A DNA stretch of 64,000 bases from Acetofilamentum sp. (GTDB taxonomy: Bacteria > Bacteroidota > Bacteroidia > Bacteroidales > DYOH01): positions 44,654-108,653 of the forward strand of contig DYOH01000001.1 of assembly GCA_020720625.1 (NCBI GenBank). Direction: 5' to 3'. Positions 55,327-61,678 of the stretch are shown piece by piece. Position 1 is the first letter of the stretch. Every line of letters starts with the position of its first letter. The position numbers and the translations under genes are program-made. Below the pieces are notes generated by a model. It was not told the DNA's origin. It did no database searches and saw nothing but the letters and a program-made list of their open reading frames with translations.

Positions 55327-57039
55327 TTATTTATTAACCAAATTGTTTTCACGCAAAATTGCTTTTGATACCCATGGCTCAGGTATCATTCTCCAGTTAT
55401 TATTTACTTGTAAATCAATATTTTGTATTTCCTTTAGATATTCCATCATATAATAACGTAAATCTTTTTCAGTCGAAAAAACTATGCGCGATGATAAATC
55501 CTGGCGGTTTATTCCGGCACCTTCAGTAAGATGTCCTCCGCCGCCGTTACCTCTGTATGAATTTATGGCCACTTTGTATTTAGTATTCAATTCGAATTTT
55601 GTTCCATCGCTTAGTTTCTCAATTTTGATTCTTTCTCCTGCTTTTTTAGTTAAATCTACAGTGTAATCAATGCCTTCGGCGGAATCGAAATTATAACCCG
55701 GATTTTTTAAATTTTGGCCATTTTCGGCGAATTGCAAAAGTGTATCTTTTTCCGATTGCATTGTATTTACCCATAGAGAATAAGAATATTCAAGATAATT
55801 TTTTATTTCCAGGCCTGATAACTCCATGGTATAGAGCAGATTTTCGTATCTGTACAGATTAAATAGTTCTGACATCAGAATTTTTCCCGGATTTATGTTC
55901 ATTTTGGTTTGCAAGGGCGCTGCAAAAGAGATTTGTGCGTTTCCAATTTTTAGTTGCAAGTTGTGAATCAAATCCATAAATTCATTATCCTTATAAAATA
56001 TGTTTTTTGTAGATAATGTATCATTTAATGTAGCAATTTCCTCGTTCACATAGGCATCAATGCGGGCAATATCTTTAGCAAAATGATTTATAAATCCCGA
56101 ATCGGGCACGAAATCCGAAACATTTATCAAATCGCCGAATGAAAAAAGTTCGTATTCGTGTTTTTTTTCGTTCCACTGCAGGTTAATGCTTAAATGAGCT
56201 AGATTTTGCGCTCGTGATCCGGGGTTGAGCAACCACACAGTATCGCCCGATTGAGACACAATTTTTTCGGCAAGCGGACGGTGGTCATGTCCACAAATTA
56301 CGGCATTAAATCCATCAACCGTTTCTGCAATATGCCGCGCAGCATCTTCGGCCATTTTGGGAGCATTACTTTCTCCGGCACCGGTATGAAAAAGGCCAAT
56401 AATGATATCCGGATCGTGTTTTTCTTTGGCCACTTTTATCCAAAATTCGGCCGACTCCTTTAAATCCATAAATTCAATACCCGAATAAATATTTTGCGGC
56501 AACCAATACGGAATATGGGGTGTAATTAAGCCGATCACAACAATTTTAATTTTACTACGGATTAAAAAAGCATAAGGTTGGAAATAAGGCTGTTTTGTAC
56601 TATCTATCATGGCATTGCCGGCCAGCCATGGGAAATCCGAATGGTCAACAAGTTTATCGTAAACCTGATGTCCGGCTTCAATATCATGATTACCAAGGCT
56701 TGCAGCATCATAGCTTAAATAATTCATTACCCTGGCTACCAAATGAGTATTTAAAGTATCGATAAAATTTGCGAAATATACACTTGGTTGACCCTGAATA
56801 ATGTCGCCATTATCAAGCAATAGCGTAATGGTATCTTTTCTGCTTCTCTGATGATTTAGAAATGTACTTACATGTGCTAATGAAGCATTTAGGCTGTCCT
56901 TTTTTAAATAATCATAGGGAAAAAGCACGCCATGAACATCGGATGTAAAATAAAAATCCAACACATGATTCTTATTTTCCTGTTGACAGCTACTAAAAAG
57001 TAATACTAAACTAAGTAAGAAAAAAAATGTTTTTTTCAT
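55327..57039 (-). CDS. lipoprotein 5'-nucleotidase/cyclic phosphodiesterase
   Basis: 570 residues. Lipobox FSSC (Cys18) after a hydrophobic signal. An N-terminal calcineurin-like phosphoesterase (about 25-290; FTSDVHGVLFPYD, DNGDIIQGQP, GNHDIEAG, GLFHTGA, CGHDHRPL) is followed by the 5'-nucleotidase C-terminal domain (about 330-545; GYNFDSAEGIDYTVDL, NSYRGNGGGGHL). The family hydrolyses 5'- and 2',3'-cyclic nucleotides or other phosphoesters in the periplasm. It lacks UDP-sugar marks and the substrate is unknown. It stands alone on the minus strand, divergent from the kinase-RapZ gene. Confidence 0.9.
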   Translation of the reverse strand: MKKTFFFLLSLVLLFSSCQQENKNHVLDFYFTSDVHGVLFPYDYLKKDSLNASLAHVSTFLNHQRSRKDTITLLLDNGDIIQGQPSVYFANFIDTLNTHLVARVMNYLSYDAASLGNHDIEAGHQVYDKLVDHSDFPWLAGNAMIDSTKQPYFQPYAFLIRSKIKIVVIGLITPHIPYWLPQNIYSGIEFMDLKESAEFWIKVAKEKHDPDIIIGLFHTGAGESNAPKMAEDAARHIAETVDGFNAVICGHDHRPLAEKIVSQSGDTVWLLNPGSRAQNLAHLSINLQWNEKKHEYELFSFGDLINVSDFVPDSGFINHFAKDIARIDAYVNEEIATLNDTLSTKNIFYKDNEFMDLIHNLQLKIGNAQISFAAPLQTKMNINPGKILMSELFNLYRYENLLYTMELSGLEIKNYLEYSYSLWVNTMQSEKDTLLQFAENGQNLKNPGYNFDSAEGIDYTVDLTKKAGERIKIEKLSDGTKFELNTKYKVAINSYRGNGGGGHLTEGAGINRQDLSSRIVFSTEKDLRYYMMEYLKEIQNIDLQVNNNWRMIPEPWVSKAILRENNLVNK

Positions 57040-57179: not shown

Positions 57180-58589
57180 ATGGCCTGTAAAGATATAATT
57201 TTAGAATTAGCTTCGAAAATATTAAATTCAACACAAATAACTTGTTTTGAGTTAAACCCATCTGCGTCAGGTAGAAAATACTACAGGTGCAGCAATTCTG
57301 TTGAATCAATACTTATTGTATATAATCTAGATGTTGATGAGAATAAAGCCTATATCAATTGGACCGGATTTTTAGAGAATAACGGCATAAATGTACCCAA
57401 GGCTTCATTTTTTGAGAATCCTAATTTCTATGTTGTTCAGGATTTGGGAAAAAATACATTATTCGACGAAATAATCGATTCTTTTTCTGGCAAAAATCAA
57501 TTAAATGTTGAACATCTATTACAATTAAGCCTTAGTCAGTTGGCACGACTACAATTTTTACAGGCCGAAGCTCTAAATATTTTTTATCCTATTAAATATG
57601 TAAGCGAGAGAGAATTATATTGGGATTTGAATTATTTTAAGTATAATTTTTTAAAAATTGCTGATGTAGGTTTTCATGAAGCGCATTTACAGGACGACTT
57701 TGATAACTATATTCTACGGATGAAAGAATTTGGGCTTAAGGGCTTGCAATTTCGTGATTTTCAATCAAGAAACATCATTTTGTATGTAAATGATGTATAT
57801 TTTATTGATTTTCAAGGAATAAGAATTGGTGATGTAGTTTATGATGCCGTTTCATTACTGTATCAATCTAGGTTAAAATTGTCCGATAAGCTTATCGAAA
57901 AATTAAAGGAATATTATAAATCAGAATTAGCAAAATATATTTCTTTCGACAAGCAGGTGTTTGAAAAGGATTGGCACCTGCAGGCGCTTTTCAGAAATTT
58001 ACAAACCTTGGGAGCCTACGGTTTACTTGGCATGGTTAGAAACAAGCACATGTTTCAACAACCTTTGCAAAATGCTATTCAGCGGCTTCATTCCTTGTTG
58101 CAAAAGTCCGATTTTGATGATTTTCGCGAAATAAAAAAAATTTCTTTACAACTATTTAATAATAAGCAAATTAAGCAATACATGAACACAGCAAATCTTC
58201 AAGTTAAAATACAGAGTTTTTCTTTCAAAAAAGGGGTTCCATTAGACGAAACCGAGCATGGCGGTGGATACATATTCGATTGCAGGGCGGTTAATAATCC
58301 CGGCAGGGTAGAAGGCCTAAAACAAAAAAATGGCAAAGACCTTGAAGTTATCGAATTTTTGGAAAATGAACCAGAAATGATTGATTTTTTGGGCGATGTT
58401 TATGCTATCGTTTCAAAACATGTGGATAAATATTTGCTTAATCACTACGAGTATTTAAGCGTATCTTTCGGATGTACAGGTGGGCAACACCGCTCCGTAT
58501 ATTCATCAGAAAAATTAGCCCTTTATTTGCAAAAGAAATACGCATCAAAAATATCTATATCATTATCTCATAGAGAATTATCTAAATGA
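57180..58589 (+). CDS. APH-family kinase fused to RapZ C-terminal domain
   Basis: 469 residues. Residues 1-310 are an aminoglycoside-phosphotransferase-like kinase similar to anomeric sugar kinase AmgK: FRDFQSRNIIL with catalytic Asp193 and Asn198, and metal-binding Asp210 in FIDFQG; the usual His of the HxD motif is Phe191. Residues about 340-469 match the RapZ C-terminal domain: FDCRAVNNPGRVEGL, GCTGGQHRSV (431-440) and SLSHREL. In E. coli this domain senses GlcN6P to control GlmS. It overlaps by 4 nt a MurU-like nucleotidyltransferase gene. AmgK and MurU together salvage MurNAc in cell-wall recycling; the substrate here is inferred. Confidence 0.9.
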   Translation: MACKDIILELASKILNSTQITCFELNPSASGRKYYRCSNSVESILIVYNLDVDENKAYINWTGFLENNGINVPKASFFENPNFYVVQDLGKNTLFDEIIDSFSGKNQLNVEHLLQLSLSQLARLQFLQAEALNIFYPIKYVSERELYWDLNYFKYNFLKIADVGFHEAHLQDDFDNYILRMKEFGLKGLQFRDFQSRNIILYVNDVYFIDFQGIRIGDVVYDAVSLLYQSRLKLSDKLIEKLKEYYKSELAKYISFDKQVFEKDWHLQALFRNLQTLGAYGLLGMVRNKHMFQQPLQNAIQRLHSLLQKSDFDDFREIKKISLQLFNNKQIKQYMNTANLQVKIQSFSFKKGVPLDETEHGGGYIFDCRAVNNPGRVEGLKQKNGKDLEVIEFLENEPEMIDFLGDVYAIVSKHVDKYLLNHYEYLSVSFGCTGGQHRSVYSSEKLALYLQKKYASKISISLSHRELSK

Positions 58590-59281
58590 AAGCCTTTGTT
58601 TTAGCTGCCGGTTTGGGCACAAGATTAGGATATCTTACCAATAATAAACCAAAGGCCTTGGTAGAGTACCGGGAAAAAACACTCTTACAGTGGGTTATAG
58701 AAAAGTTGAAAAATGAAGGATTTACGCAAATCATTATCAATATTCATCACTTTGGAGAGCAAATAATTCAGTTTATTGAAGCCAATAATTCATTTGGGCT
58801 AAATATTTATTTTTCAGACGAGCGGGCTATGTTGCTCGATACCGGAGGGGCTATTCTGCATGCAAGTCATTTGCTAAGTGATACTTCAGATATACTAATT
58901 TATAATGTTGATATACTGAGTAATATTTCTTTGGAAAAACTTGTAAATTATCATCTTAGGAATAATGCTTTGGCCACATTATCTTTAAGTAAGCGAAATA
59001 GCAGCCGACAATTGCTTTTTAATACAAACTTTGAGCTAAAAGCATGGAAAAACATACAAACAAATCAAATTAAAGGAAAATATTCCGAGGGTTTAGATGC
59101 ATTTTCATTTAACGGAATCCATATCATTTCGAATCAGATTTTTCGTCAGATTACCGAAAGCGGAAAATTTTCTATCATTGATTTATATTTGCGTCTGGCC
59201 GAAAATCAGTCTATTTTAGGGTATTATACACCTGAATACTATTTTCGTGATATGGGAAAATTAGCTGATTTAATGGAATAA
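58586..59281 (+). CDS. MurU-like sugar-1-phosphate nucleotidyltransferase
   Basis: 231 residues with the nucleotidyltransferase signature AAGLGTRLGYLTNNKPKAL, an Asp in YNVDIL for metal binding and a C-terminal YYFRDMGKLAD. Size and context fit MurU (N-acetylmuramate alpha-1-phosphate uridylyltransferase) or a related NDP-sugar enzyme. It overlaps by 4 nt the kinase-RapZ gene, giving a kinase/uridylyltransferase pair. The sugar cannot be fixed from sequence: MurNAc is the best-supported guess, and a glycerol-manno-heptose or other sugar is possible. Confidence 0.9.
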   Translation: MKAFVLAAGLGTRLGYLTNNKPKALVEYREKTLLQWVIEKLKNEGFTQIIINIHHFGEQIIQFIEANNSFGLNIYFSDERAMLLDTGGAILHASHLLSDTSDILIYNVDILSNISLEKLVNYHLRNNALATLSLSKRNSSRQLLFNTNFELKAWKNIQTNQIKGKYSEGLDAFSFNGIHIISNQIFRQITESGKFSIIDLYLRLAENQSILGYYTPEYYFRDMGKLADLME

Positions 59282-59331: not shown

Positions 59332-60354
59332 ATGAAGAAAATAATAATAACAGGTTCAGCGGGATTTATTGGCTATCATTTAACCAATCTTCTTGCAAAG
59401 TGCAATAATTATGAGATTATTGCCATAGATAATATAAATTCATACTATGATATACAGTTGAAATTAGACCGCTTGGAACAGCTCGGTATTTCTAAAGATT
59501 TACTAGCCGAAAATCAACCAATAAAAAGCTTAAAATATAAGAATTTAGTTTTTTATAAAACAGATTTAAATAATTTTCATCAGTTGGAGAAAATATTTAA
59601 ATATATTTATCCGGAAGTTGTTTGTCATTTGGCAGCACAAGCAGGTGTTCGCTATAGTATTTCGCATCCCGAAGAATACATTTCGAATAATATTAATGCA
59701 TTTTTTAATATTCTGAAATTGAGCACCGATTTTTCTGTTCATCATTTAGTATATGCTAGTAGTTCAAGTGTTTATGGTTTAACAGGAGAACAAATCTATT
59801 CAGAGCATCAAAGCACCGAAAAGCCAATAAGTTTATATGCAGCAACCAAAAAGAGCAACGAATTATTGGCTCACGTTTATAGTCATATTTACCAGATATA
59901 TACTACCGGATTGCGATTTTTTACTGTTTACGGCCCATGGGGCAGACCGGATATGGCGCCAATCTTGTTTTCAAAAGCAATCTTGTCAGGCGAAGCCATA
60001 CAAGTTTTCAATAATGGTCATTTAGAAAGGGATTTTACTTATATTGATGATATAGTTAAGGGGGTAGAATCAGTTATAAATAAAGATATTAACCTACGAG
60101 ATGAATATTTCAAAATATATAATATCGGACGAGGAAAACCCGAAAAACTGATGCATTTTATTTCGGAGCTAGAGAAAAGTTTTGGAATTACAGCACAAAA
60201 AGAATATTTAGAGATGCAAAAAGGTGATGTTTTGAAAACTTTTGCCGATATTTCGGAATTAAAGAACGATTTTGGGTATTCGCCTCAAACCAATATAGAA
60301 AAGGGAATACCCGAATTTGTAAAATGGTTTAAAATTTACTATGATTACAATTAA
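59332..60354 (+). CDS. UDP-glucuronate 4-epimerase-like extended SDR
   Basis: 340 residues. NAD-binding GSAGFIG at the start, catalytic SSSSVYG, YAATKKSNE with Tyr/Lys, and TVYGPWGRPDMAP, the pattern of UDP-glucuronate 4-epimerase-type enzymes (the 'GRPDMA' motif is typical). It provides UDP-galacturonate or a related sugar nucleotide for envelope polysaccharides. It begins 50 nt after the MurU-like gene and overlaps the deacetylase-like gene by 14 nt. Confidence 0.92.
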   Translation: MKKIIITGSAGFIGYHLTNLLAKCNNYEIIAIDNINSYYDIQLKLDRLEQLGISKDLLAENQPIKSLKYKNLVFYKTDLNNFHQLEKIFKYIYPEVVCHLAAQAGVRYSISHPEEYISNNINAFFNILKLSTDFSVHHLVYASSSSVYGLTGEQIYSEHQSTEKPISLYAATKKSNELLAHVYSHIYQIYTTGLRFFTVYGPWGRPDMAPILFSKAILSGEAIQVFNNGHLERDFTYIDDIVKGVESVINKDINLRDEYFKIYNIGRGKPEKLMHFISELEKSFGITAQKEYLEMQKGDVLKTFADISELKNDFGYSPQTNIEKGIPEFVKWFKIYYDYN

Positions 60355-61678
60355 AATTCCTTCAAATTACCGGGCAGAACGAGCCTATTTGCTGCATATT
60401 ATTTTTGAGGACAGGTTGGGTATAAGCTATGAGGTAGAGCCTGGCTCCGAAAATCATACAATCATTGTTTTGCCAAATGGCAATACCATTATTTTCGAAG
60501 ATCATTTTTTTTCATTGTACAATGAAAATAAGTCCTATTTAAGCGAAGAAAATTTACCTGCACAGGTTGATTTTTTGGTCAATCGGGATTATTTTCAAGA
60601 TGGCCTTGCTGTTTTTTTTGGATTGGCCGAGATGGAGATACAGGAAAACCAAATTTTACTAAAAGCCGATTTACCTGCACAGATATTTTTTCTGCTAAGT
60701 CGCTGGGAAGAAAAAGTAATACAAGAAAGAGATGAATTAGGCCGTCCGAAAGAAAAAAGCCTTTTTGTTGTAAAATTGCATTTAAACGAGCGCCCTTTGG
60801 TCGACGAGTATATCACAGCCATTGCATCGTTAATACAAAAATCTGGTTATGAGAAGTTTAATGTCAAGAAGCATTATCAGGTAATTCCTTCACATGATGT
60901 TGATTTTGTAAAAAAGTGGAGAAATACTTTTCATGCCTGGAAAGAAATTGGGGGTGATACGTTTAAACGAAGAAATATTACGCGGGCTCTCTATAACTTC
61001 ACACTTTGGAGTGCCTCAAAATTGAAACTTTTAGATGAACCCAATAATACCATCGATGAATTGATTCAAAAATCACTGATAAATAATCGAAAAGCAGTTT
61101 TCTTCTTTATGTCCGGTGGAGAAACTCAATGGGATAATTATTTACCAGAGGATGCAGAAATAATTAAACGCTGGGCAGATAAAATAGTGGCATCGAAATT
61201 TAGTCTGGGAATACATCCAAGCATCGAAGCCGCAAAAAATGCCGATTTATTGAAAGAAGAGCTTACAAATTATAAGCAATTGGTTCAGTATCAGATATGC
61301 TGTAGCAGACAGCATTATCTCAAAATGTTAATACCTGAAACATGGAATATGCTCGATGATAATAACTTAGGCTGGGATAGCAGTTGCGGATTTTCACATC
61401 ATGTTGGCTTTAGGTGCGGAACATCTTATCCTTTTAGAGTGTTTGATATAGATTCGCGTAAAATATTAAAATTGAGAGAAAAACCTTTAATCTTAATGGA
61501 TACGGCAATTGTTGAACACATGAAATTGACAGAGAAAGACGCTATTGACAGGGTTAGGGTACTAAAGAGAACCATAAAAACTTATGGTGGGGAATTTGTT
61601 TTTTTATTGCATAATTCATCCTTACGCGCATTTGAGTATCGAAATCACAAAAACTTTTTTGAAGAATTATACAAATAA
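60341..61678 (+). CDS. polysaccharide deacetylase-like protein
   Basis: 445 residues. About 200 N-terminal residues (the DUF7033-like region of large Bacteroidota deacetylases) precede a NodB-like core with the metal-binding PSHDVDF and HPS motif in LGIHPSIEAAKN, and a late EHMKL that may close the site. No signal peptide is seen, so it acts in the cytosol or is anchored by partners. It is the last gene of the kinase-RapZ/MurU/epimerase group, overlapping the epimerase by 14 nt, so it may work on a sugar nucleotide or lipid-linked polysaccharide. Confidence 0.82.
   Translation: MITIKIPSNYRAERAYLLHIIFEDRLGISYEVEPGSENHTIIVLPNGNTIIFEDHFFSLYNENKSYLSEENLPAQVDFLVNRDYFQDGLAVFFGLAEMEIQENQILLKADLPAQIFFLLSRWEEKVIQERDELGRPKEKSLFVVKLHLNERPLVDEYITAIASLIQKSGYEKFNVKKHYQVIPSHDVDFVKKWRNTFHAWKEIGGDTFKRRNITRALYNFTLWSASKLKLLDEPNNTIDELIQKSLINNRKAVFFFMSGGETQWDNYLPEDAEIIKRWADKIVASKFSLGIHPSIEAAKNADLLKEELTNYKQLVQYQICCSRQHYLKMLIPETWNMLDDNNLGWDSSCGFSHHVGFRCGTSYPFRVFDIDSRKILKLREKPLILMDTAIVEHMKLTEKDAIDRVRVLKRTIKTYGGEFVFLLHNSSLRAFEYRNHKNFFEELYK

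Follow-up and report, generated by a model that had tools for sequence, protein, structure and literature searches.

A sugar kinase fused to a RapZ C-terminal domain is widespread in Bacteroidota, probably as a variant of the AmgK/MurU route, and may include a MurNAc-6P phosphatase

Why should a sugar kinase carry the C-terminal domain of RapZ? Could this domain sense an amino-sugar phosphate, or might it act on one? These questions are raised by a gene for a 469-aa protein at 57180..58589 of the window (the whole 64,000-nt stretch of DNA analysed here), in which an APH/AmgK-like sugar kinase is joined to a RapZ C-terminal domain (RapZ_C); all features given lie on the + strand unless marked otherwise. 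The kinase domain spans about residues 1–325 (57180..58154), with a match to PF01636 (APH) over residues 44–250 (31.7 bits, cut-off 23.2). RapZ_C occupies residues 340–467 (58197..58580) and matches PF22740 over profile positions 1–120 of 121 (109.9 bits, cut-off 27). An earlier note on this DNA had called the kinase AmgK-like and its RapZ C-terminal domain complete, with the motif GCTGGQHRSV; both coordinates and motif proved correct. Among NCBIfam models, the fused protein falls into the RapZ and AmgK families, each below the curated cut-off; the AmgK equivalog NF045759 scores 32.9 bits against a cut-off of 550. By these profile matches the kinase is fittingly called 'AmgK-like' and formally falls short of 'AmgK'. 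The next gene (58586..59281) encodes a 231-aa MurU-like sugar-1-phosphate uridylyltransferase and overlaps the kinase gene by 4 nt (ATGA, 58586–58589), as the same note had it. Its best family is NF045761 (MurU; 113 bits, below the equivalog cut-off of 250), and it additionally matches heptose-1P and mannose-1P transferases.

Is the kinase likely to be functional? The HxD histidine is replaced by Phe191 in the catalytic loop FRDFQSRN (residues 191–198, 57750..57773), from which an altered activity had been anticipated in the earlier note. This position is Tyr (25) or Phe (9) in all 34 relatives compared, and D193, Q195, R197, N198, D210, Q212 and R215 are invariant among them, D210 and Q212 belonging to the metal-binding loop IDFQ (residues 209–212, 57804..57815). 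The aromatic residue is thus a family-wide trait, the catalytic Asp and Asn and the metal Asp of an APH-fold kinase are all in place, and we rejected the idea of a damaged enzyme. The nearest solved kinase structure, the AmgK-like 3csv (profile E 2.3e-26; fold E 3.9e-12, TMt 0.77), reads HRDFHAQN at the catalytic loop; the predicted model of the fused protein has a pLDDT of 88.8. With its catalytic residues intact, the kinase looks active, as far as can be predicted from its sequence. The branch leading to the copy at 57180–58589 is among the longest in the family tree (3.98); this is a divergent, fast-evolving member, with many near-invariant non-catalytic positions changed, for example L283, R287 and P295.

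How common is this architecture? A homologue of the fused gene is present in 55 of 60 Bacteroidales genomes, and the match extends across both domains in 50, two of these with one in-frame stop. Kinase and RapZ_C are separate neighbouring ORFs in two genomes (G002, G047), the kinase stands without RapZ_C in two others (G004, G024), and in G011 the gene is cut by the contig end. Scanning with two conserved peptides confirmed at least 594 loci; Phocaeicola, Bacteroides, Parabacteroides, Tannerella MAGs, Carboxylicivirga and Mariniphaga are among the 80 loci listed, and the Tannerella MAG loci L116 and L162 carry the fusion. In a phylum sample of 297 genomes, RapZ_C occurs in 36, fused to the kinase in 27, as a discrete gene of about 133–139 aa adjoining the kinase in seven, and unlinked in two. 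The survey across Bacteroidota that the earlier note had suggested as a check therefore finds the fusion in most Bacteroidales genomes and in most phylum-sample genomes with RapZ_C. The order kinase, RapZ_C, MurU is kept whether the first two are fused or discrete, and a minimum of six switches between fused and split states follows from the kinase tree, many branches of which are weakly supported. The N-terminal domain of RapZ (PF03668) was found in 0 of the 60 Bacteroidales relatives, with controls including E. coli positive, so that in Bacteroidales the RapZ tail is met solely alongside the kinase or encoded by a gene of its own. A canonical RapZ (family UPF0042) elsewhere in the genome was sought and none was found, and conservation across the phylum led us to reject a one-off fusion or an assembly artefact. 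No description of the kinase–RapZ_C fusion was met in the literature searched; it is a widespread variant of the AmgK/MurU route, undescribed in that literature.

In which pathway does this variant take part? AnmK makes MurNAc-6P from anhydro-MurNAc. Two fates of MurNAc-6P are known, a catabolic one through MurQ and an anabolic one through a phosphatase (MupP in Pseudomonas) followed by AmgK and MurU (PMC5371407). Kinase and RapZ_C are both present in each of the 13 AnmK+/MurQ− genomes of the phylum sample, as against 13 of 196 AnmK+/MurQ+ genomes, in which MurQ and RapZ_C are both kept; the other 183 lack both kinase and RapZ_C. Counted by family, with two mixed families entered as half each, the contrast is 7/7 versus 2/43 (p=3.6e-7). 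Among Bacteroidales, 33 of 36 AnmK+/MurQ− genomes possess kinase and RapZ_C, the other three being incomplete MAGs or cases of a contig end, and the three good-quality genomes that lack the kinase (G021, G040, G059) all have a MurQ match, one of them partial. Most Bacteroidales genomes bearing the trio of kinase, RapZ_C and MurU lack MurQ. The source genome (completeness 98.5%) is AnmK+, MurQ−, GlmS+ and MurA+, its AnmK gene lying outside this locus.

The kinase also occurs without RapZ_C, in 66 genomes (64 + 2). All of these are AnmK−, and they represent only three to four lineages; two of those examined (G024, G068) have kinase and MurU side by side. RapZ_C is retained without AnmK in 10 phylum-sample genomes, and on the tree RapZ_C and AnmK show three changes of state, too few for a phylogenetic test. 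One large lineage (f75) lacks AnmK, MurQ and RapZ_C, and in the two genomes read it has the order kinase, MurU, NamZ, Na+ symporter (L193 987–5605, L194 2687–7307). NamZ, an exo-beta-N-acetylmuramidase, liberates free MurNAc. This arrangement is a candidate complete operon for the salvage of free MurNAc, which would need no phosphatase because NamZ supplies the unphosphorylated sugar. The wall-recycling role proposed in the earlier note is thus supported by the kinase–RapZ_C–MurU order, by the complementary distribution of MurQ among genomes with AnmK and by the NamZ operons, and we consider it very probable that the kinase–MurU pair serves anabolic MurNAc salvage, as the Bacteroidota version of that route.

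Could the pair act on a different sugar instead, such as GlcNAc or a glycan precursor destined for the downstream epimerase and VimE-like deacetylase? The scores below the curated AmgK and MurU cut-offs, the heptose-1P and mannose-1P transferase matches and the presence of those downstream genes leave some room for this reading. The operon likely extends over 59332–61678 (+), with an NAD-dependent epimerase 50 nt past MurU and then a VimE-like/DUF7033 deacetylase, which overlaps the epimerase gene by 14 nt (NF053580, 156.5 bits, cut-off 440). Elsewhere, these two genes show no conserved adjacency to the trio. MurU itself is the next gene downstream, in the same orientation, at 54 of 77 loci, at 15 of which the identical 4-nt overlap recurs, and a MurU-like gene was found in 12 of 12 RapZ_C+ genomes checked, non-adjacent cases included; no other conserved neighbour emerged among the 77 loci. 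The MurQ complementarity and the NamZ operon point to MurNAc, and T. forsythia AmgK and MurU have been used in E. coli for the conversion of MurNAc probes (PMC13041923). That use suggests an active Bacteroidales member of the AmgK/MurU pair, fused or not. On this evidence, a sugar other than MurNAc is improbable.

If MurNAc is salvaged, what does RapZ_C contribute? The model of the domain (pLDDT 95.4) superposes on E. coli RapZ (Foldseek, TMq 0.87, rmsd 1.5). Among the pocket residues described for E. coli (PMC5737377, PMC9841335), the equivalents of T248, G249, H252 and R253 are conserved, as is the nearby C247; H190 is lost, which leaves four of the five residues of the full pocket set. Its counterpart, Gly375 (58302..58304), is Gly in 146 of 146 relatives, and the adjoining GGG insertion (residues 361–363, 58260..58268), missing in E. 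coli RapZ, is likewise family-specific and found in 146 of 146. Invariance clusters at C432–S439, D367, R369 and N373–G375. Within the loop CTGGQHRS (residues 432–439, 58473..58496), C432 is kept in 146 of 146 and R438 in 145 of 146 relatives, and in the model a strand ends at C432 and a helix begins at R438 (E89–96/H102–121). The domain thus has a C-X5-R-(S/T) loop between strand and helix, as in protein tyrosine phosphatases (PTPs). Khan & Goerke pointed out a likeness between the E. coli pocket and the loop of cysteine-dependent tyrosine phosphatases and raised the question of GlcN6P hydrolysis by RapZ (PMC7199280), and Islam et al. observed density of a probably transformed ligand in that pocket, GlcN6P being apparently 'chemically transformed' (PMC9841335). 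Foldseek matched RapZ only and no PTP or LMW-PTP fold, so any chemistry shared with PTPs would, judging from the model, be local. The fold relative described for the RapZ C-terminal domain is a phosphofructokinase subdomain (PMC5737377).

These observations suggest the following sequence of steps. AnmK would convert anhydro-MurNAc to MurNAc-6P; the RapZ-type domain would strip the 6-phosphate by means of its cysteine-based C-X5-R loop, taking the place of the HAD phosphatase MupP; C1 of MurNAc would next be phosphorylated by the kinase domain; and the MurU-like enzyme would turn MurNAc-1P into UDP-MurNAc, bypassing MurA and MurB. The fusion, or the adjacent gene, may hold successive steps together. 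Gene anatomy, the recurring trio, the invariant loop and the MurQ complementarity are seen in the sequences, whereas we infer the substrates and, above all, the phosphatase. The phosphatase assignment has, in our estimate, a chance just short of even; it is proposed because RapZ_C is present wherever AnmK occurs without MurQ, because the kinase dispenses with RapZ_C only where AnmK is lacking (in the three to four lineages above), and because the domain carries the C-X5-R loop. Phosphatases of the MupP-type HAD class could supply the dephosphorylation of MurNAc-6P instead, this superfamily being too broad for a decisive survey.

Is RapZ_C a sensor rather than an enzyme? The earlier note favoured a control of the kinase by the amino-sugar level. 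In this reading, the domain would be non-catalytic and would bind GlcN6P (or MurNAc-6P or a UDP-sugar) to tune the MurNAc kinase, balancing recycling against GlmS-dependent synthesis. The E. coli RapZ C-terminal domain does bind GlcN6P (PMC7073468, PMC7199280), the pocket residues T248, G249, H252, R253 and C247 are conserved, and 58 of 60 Bacteroidales relatives have GlmS. Against this stand the universal change of H190 to Gly with its adjoining GGG insertion, and the frequent cases in which the domain has a gene of its own, in two genomes away from both kinase and MurU. In these two genomes (G239, G331), kinase, RapZ_C and MurU are all present and all unlinked (L189 4214–5191, L190 5573–6625, L172 5935–6336, L173 6083–6493). 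A GlcN6P sensor would also leave the constant presence of the domain in AnmK+/MurQ− genomes unexplained, which a MurNAc-6P sensor might explain. We therefore favour kinase control less than a catalytic role on MurNAc-6P, which fits the data at least as well, and regard a sensor as rather unlikely.

A purely structural part, with the domain mediating kinase dimerisation or a docking of MurU that channels MurNAc-1P, has in its favour that the E. coli RapZ C-terminal domain alone forms a swapped dimer (PMC7199280) and that gene order holds the domain beside MurU. We think it has little chance of being right, since the invariant positions are mainly those of the anion-binding loop, plus a few polar ones, unlike what a scaffold needs, and the trio can be unlinked, as in G239 and G331. 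Homology to an sRNA-binding domain further raises the possibility of a relic RNA-binding module that regulates mRNA, as in enterobacteria. The N-terminal domain of RapZ is missing in all 60 relatives, no sRNA family match was obtained within the 64,000-nt window, and H190, the mutation of which to Ala abolishes E. coli RapZ function (PMC9841335), is absent, all of which make such a relic most improbable.

How does the putative route with a RapZ_C phosphatase compare with known systems? It shares with Pseudomonas AmgK/MurU an AmgK-like kinase (nearest structure 3csv) followed in one operon by a nucleotidyltransferase whose best family is MurU, and differs in the extra RapZ_C domain or gene, the aromatic residue at the HxD histidine and the scores far under the equivalog cut-offs. 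Like MupP, the HAD MurNAc-6P phosphatase of Pseudomonas (PMC5371407), RapZ_C is proposed for the slot between AnmK and AmgK, although its fold is unrelated and cysteine chemistry is postulated from its loop. With RapZ/YvcJ it has in common a homologous C-terminal domain and the pocket loop CTGG[KQ]HRS; unlike in RapZ/YvcJ, the P-loop NTPase N-terminal domain (PF03668) is replaced by an APH kinase, H190 by Gly, and the GGG insertion is added. MurK/MurQ of T. forsythia (PMC5790795) provides an alternative fate of MurNAc and MurNAc-6P within the same order, Bacteroidales, which in contrast to the trio is a catabolic etherase route.

The proposal offers a complete MurNAc recycling route for AnmK+/MurQ− Bacteroidota and names a candidate for its MurNAc-6P phosphatase. 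In its widest form, which we advance tentatively as somewhat below an even chance, RapZ_C would constitute a new class of cysteine-dependent sugar-phosphate phosphatases hydrolysing MurNAc-6P, the fused protein would be a bifunctional MurNAc-6P phosphatase/MurNAc 1-kinase, and the 'sensor' domain of E. coli RapZ would descend from, or still be, an amino-sugar-6-phosphatase. This bears on whether the metabolite pocket of RapZ goes beyond the binding of amino-sugar phosphates to their hydrolysis, a possibility suggested by Khan & Goerke for the E. coli protein. As an object for assays, a stand-alone domain of 133 aa in a defined pathway is simpler than the RNA-binding tetramer of E. coli.

Several further observations concern the surroundings of the trio. 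Beside the fused gene, 55327–57039 (−) encodes a divergent 5'-nucleotidase-family protein, and in G002, a genome of the same family, another protein that starts much alike (DVHG-LFP) lies divergent to the split trio (L181 6029–7786). In G009 (L185 711–5794), a 554-aa protein shares its neighbourhood with a GHL10 glycosidase and a MurU-like gene; this protein ends in a MurQ domain, and its N-terminal region resembles a sugar kinase and has no Pfam match. At L054 (G058), a 550-aa ORF begins with a MurU-like domain, a possible fusion to another enzyme.
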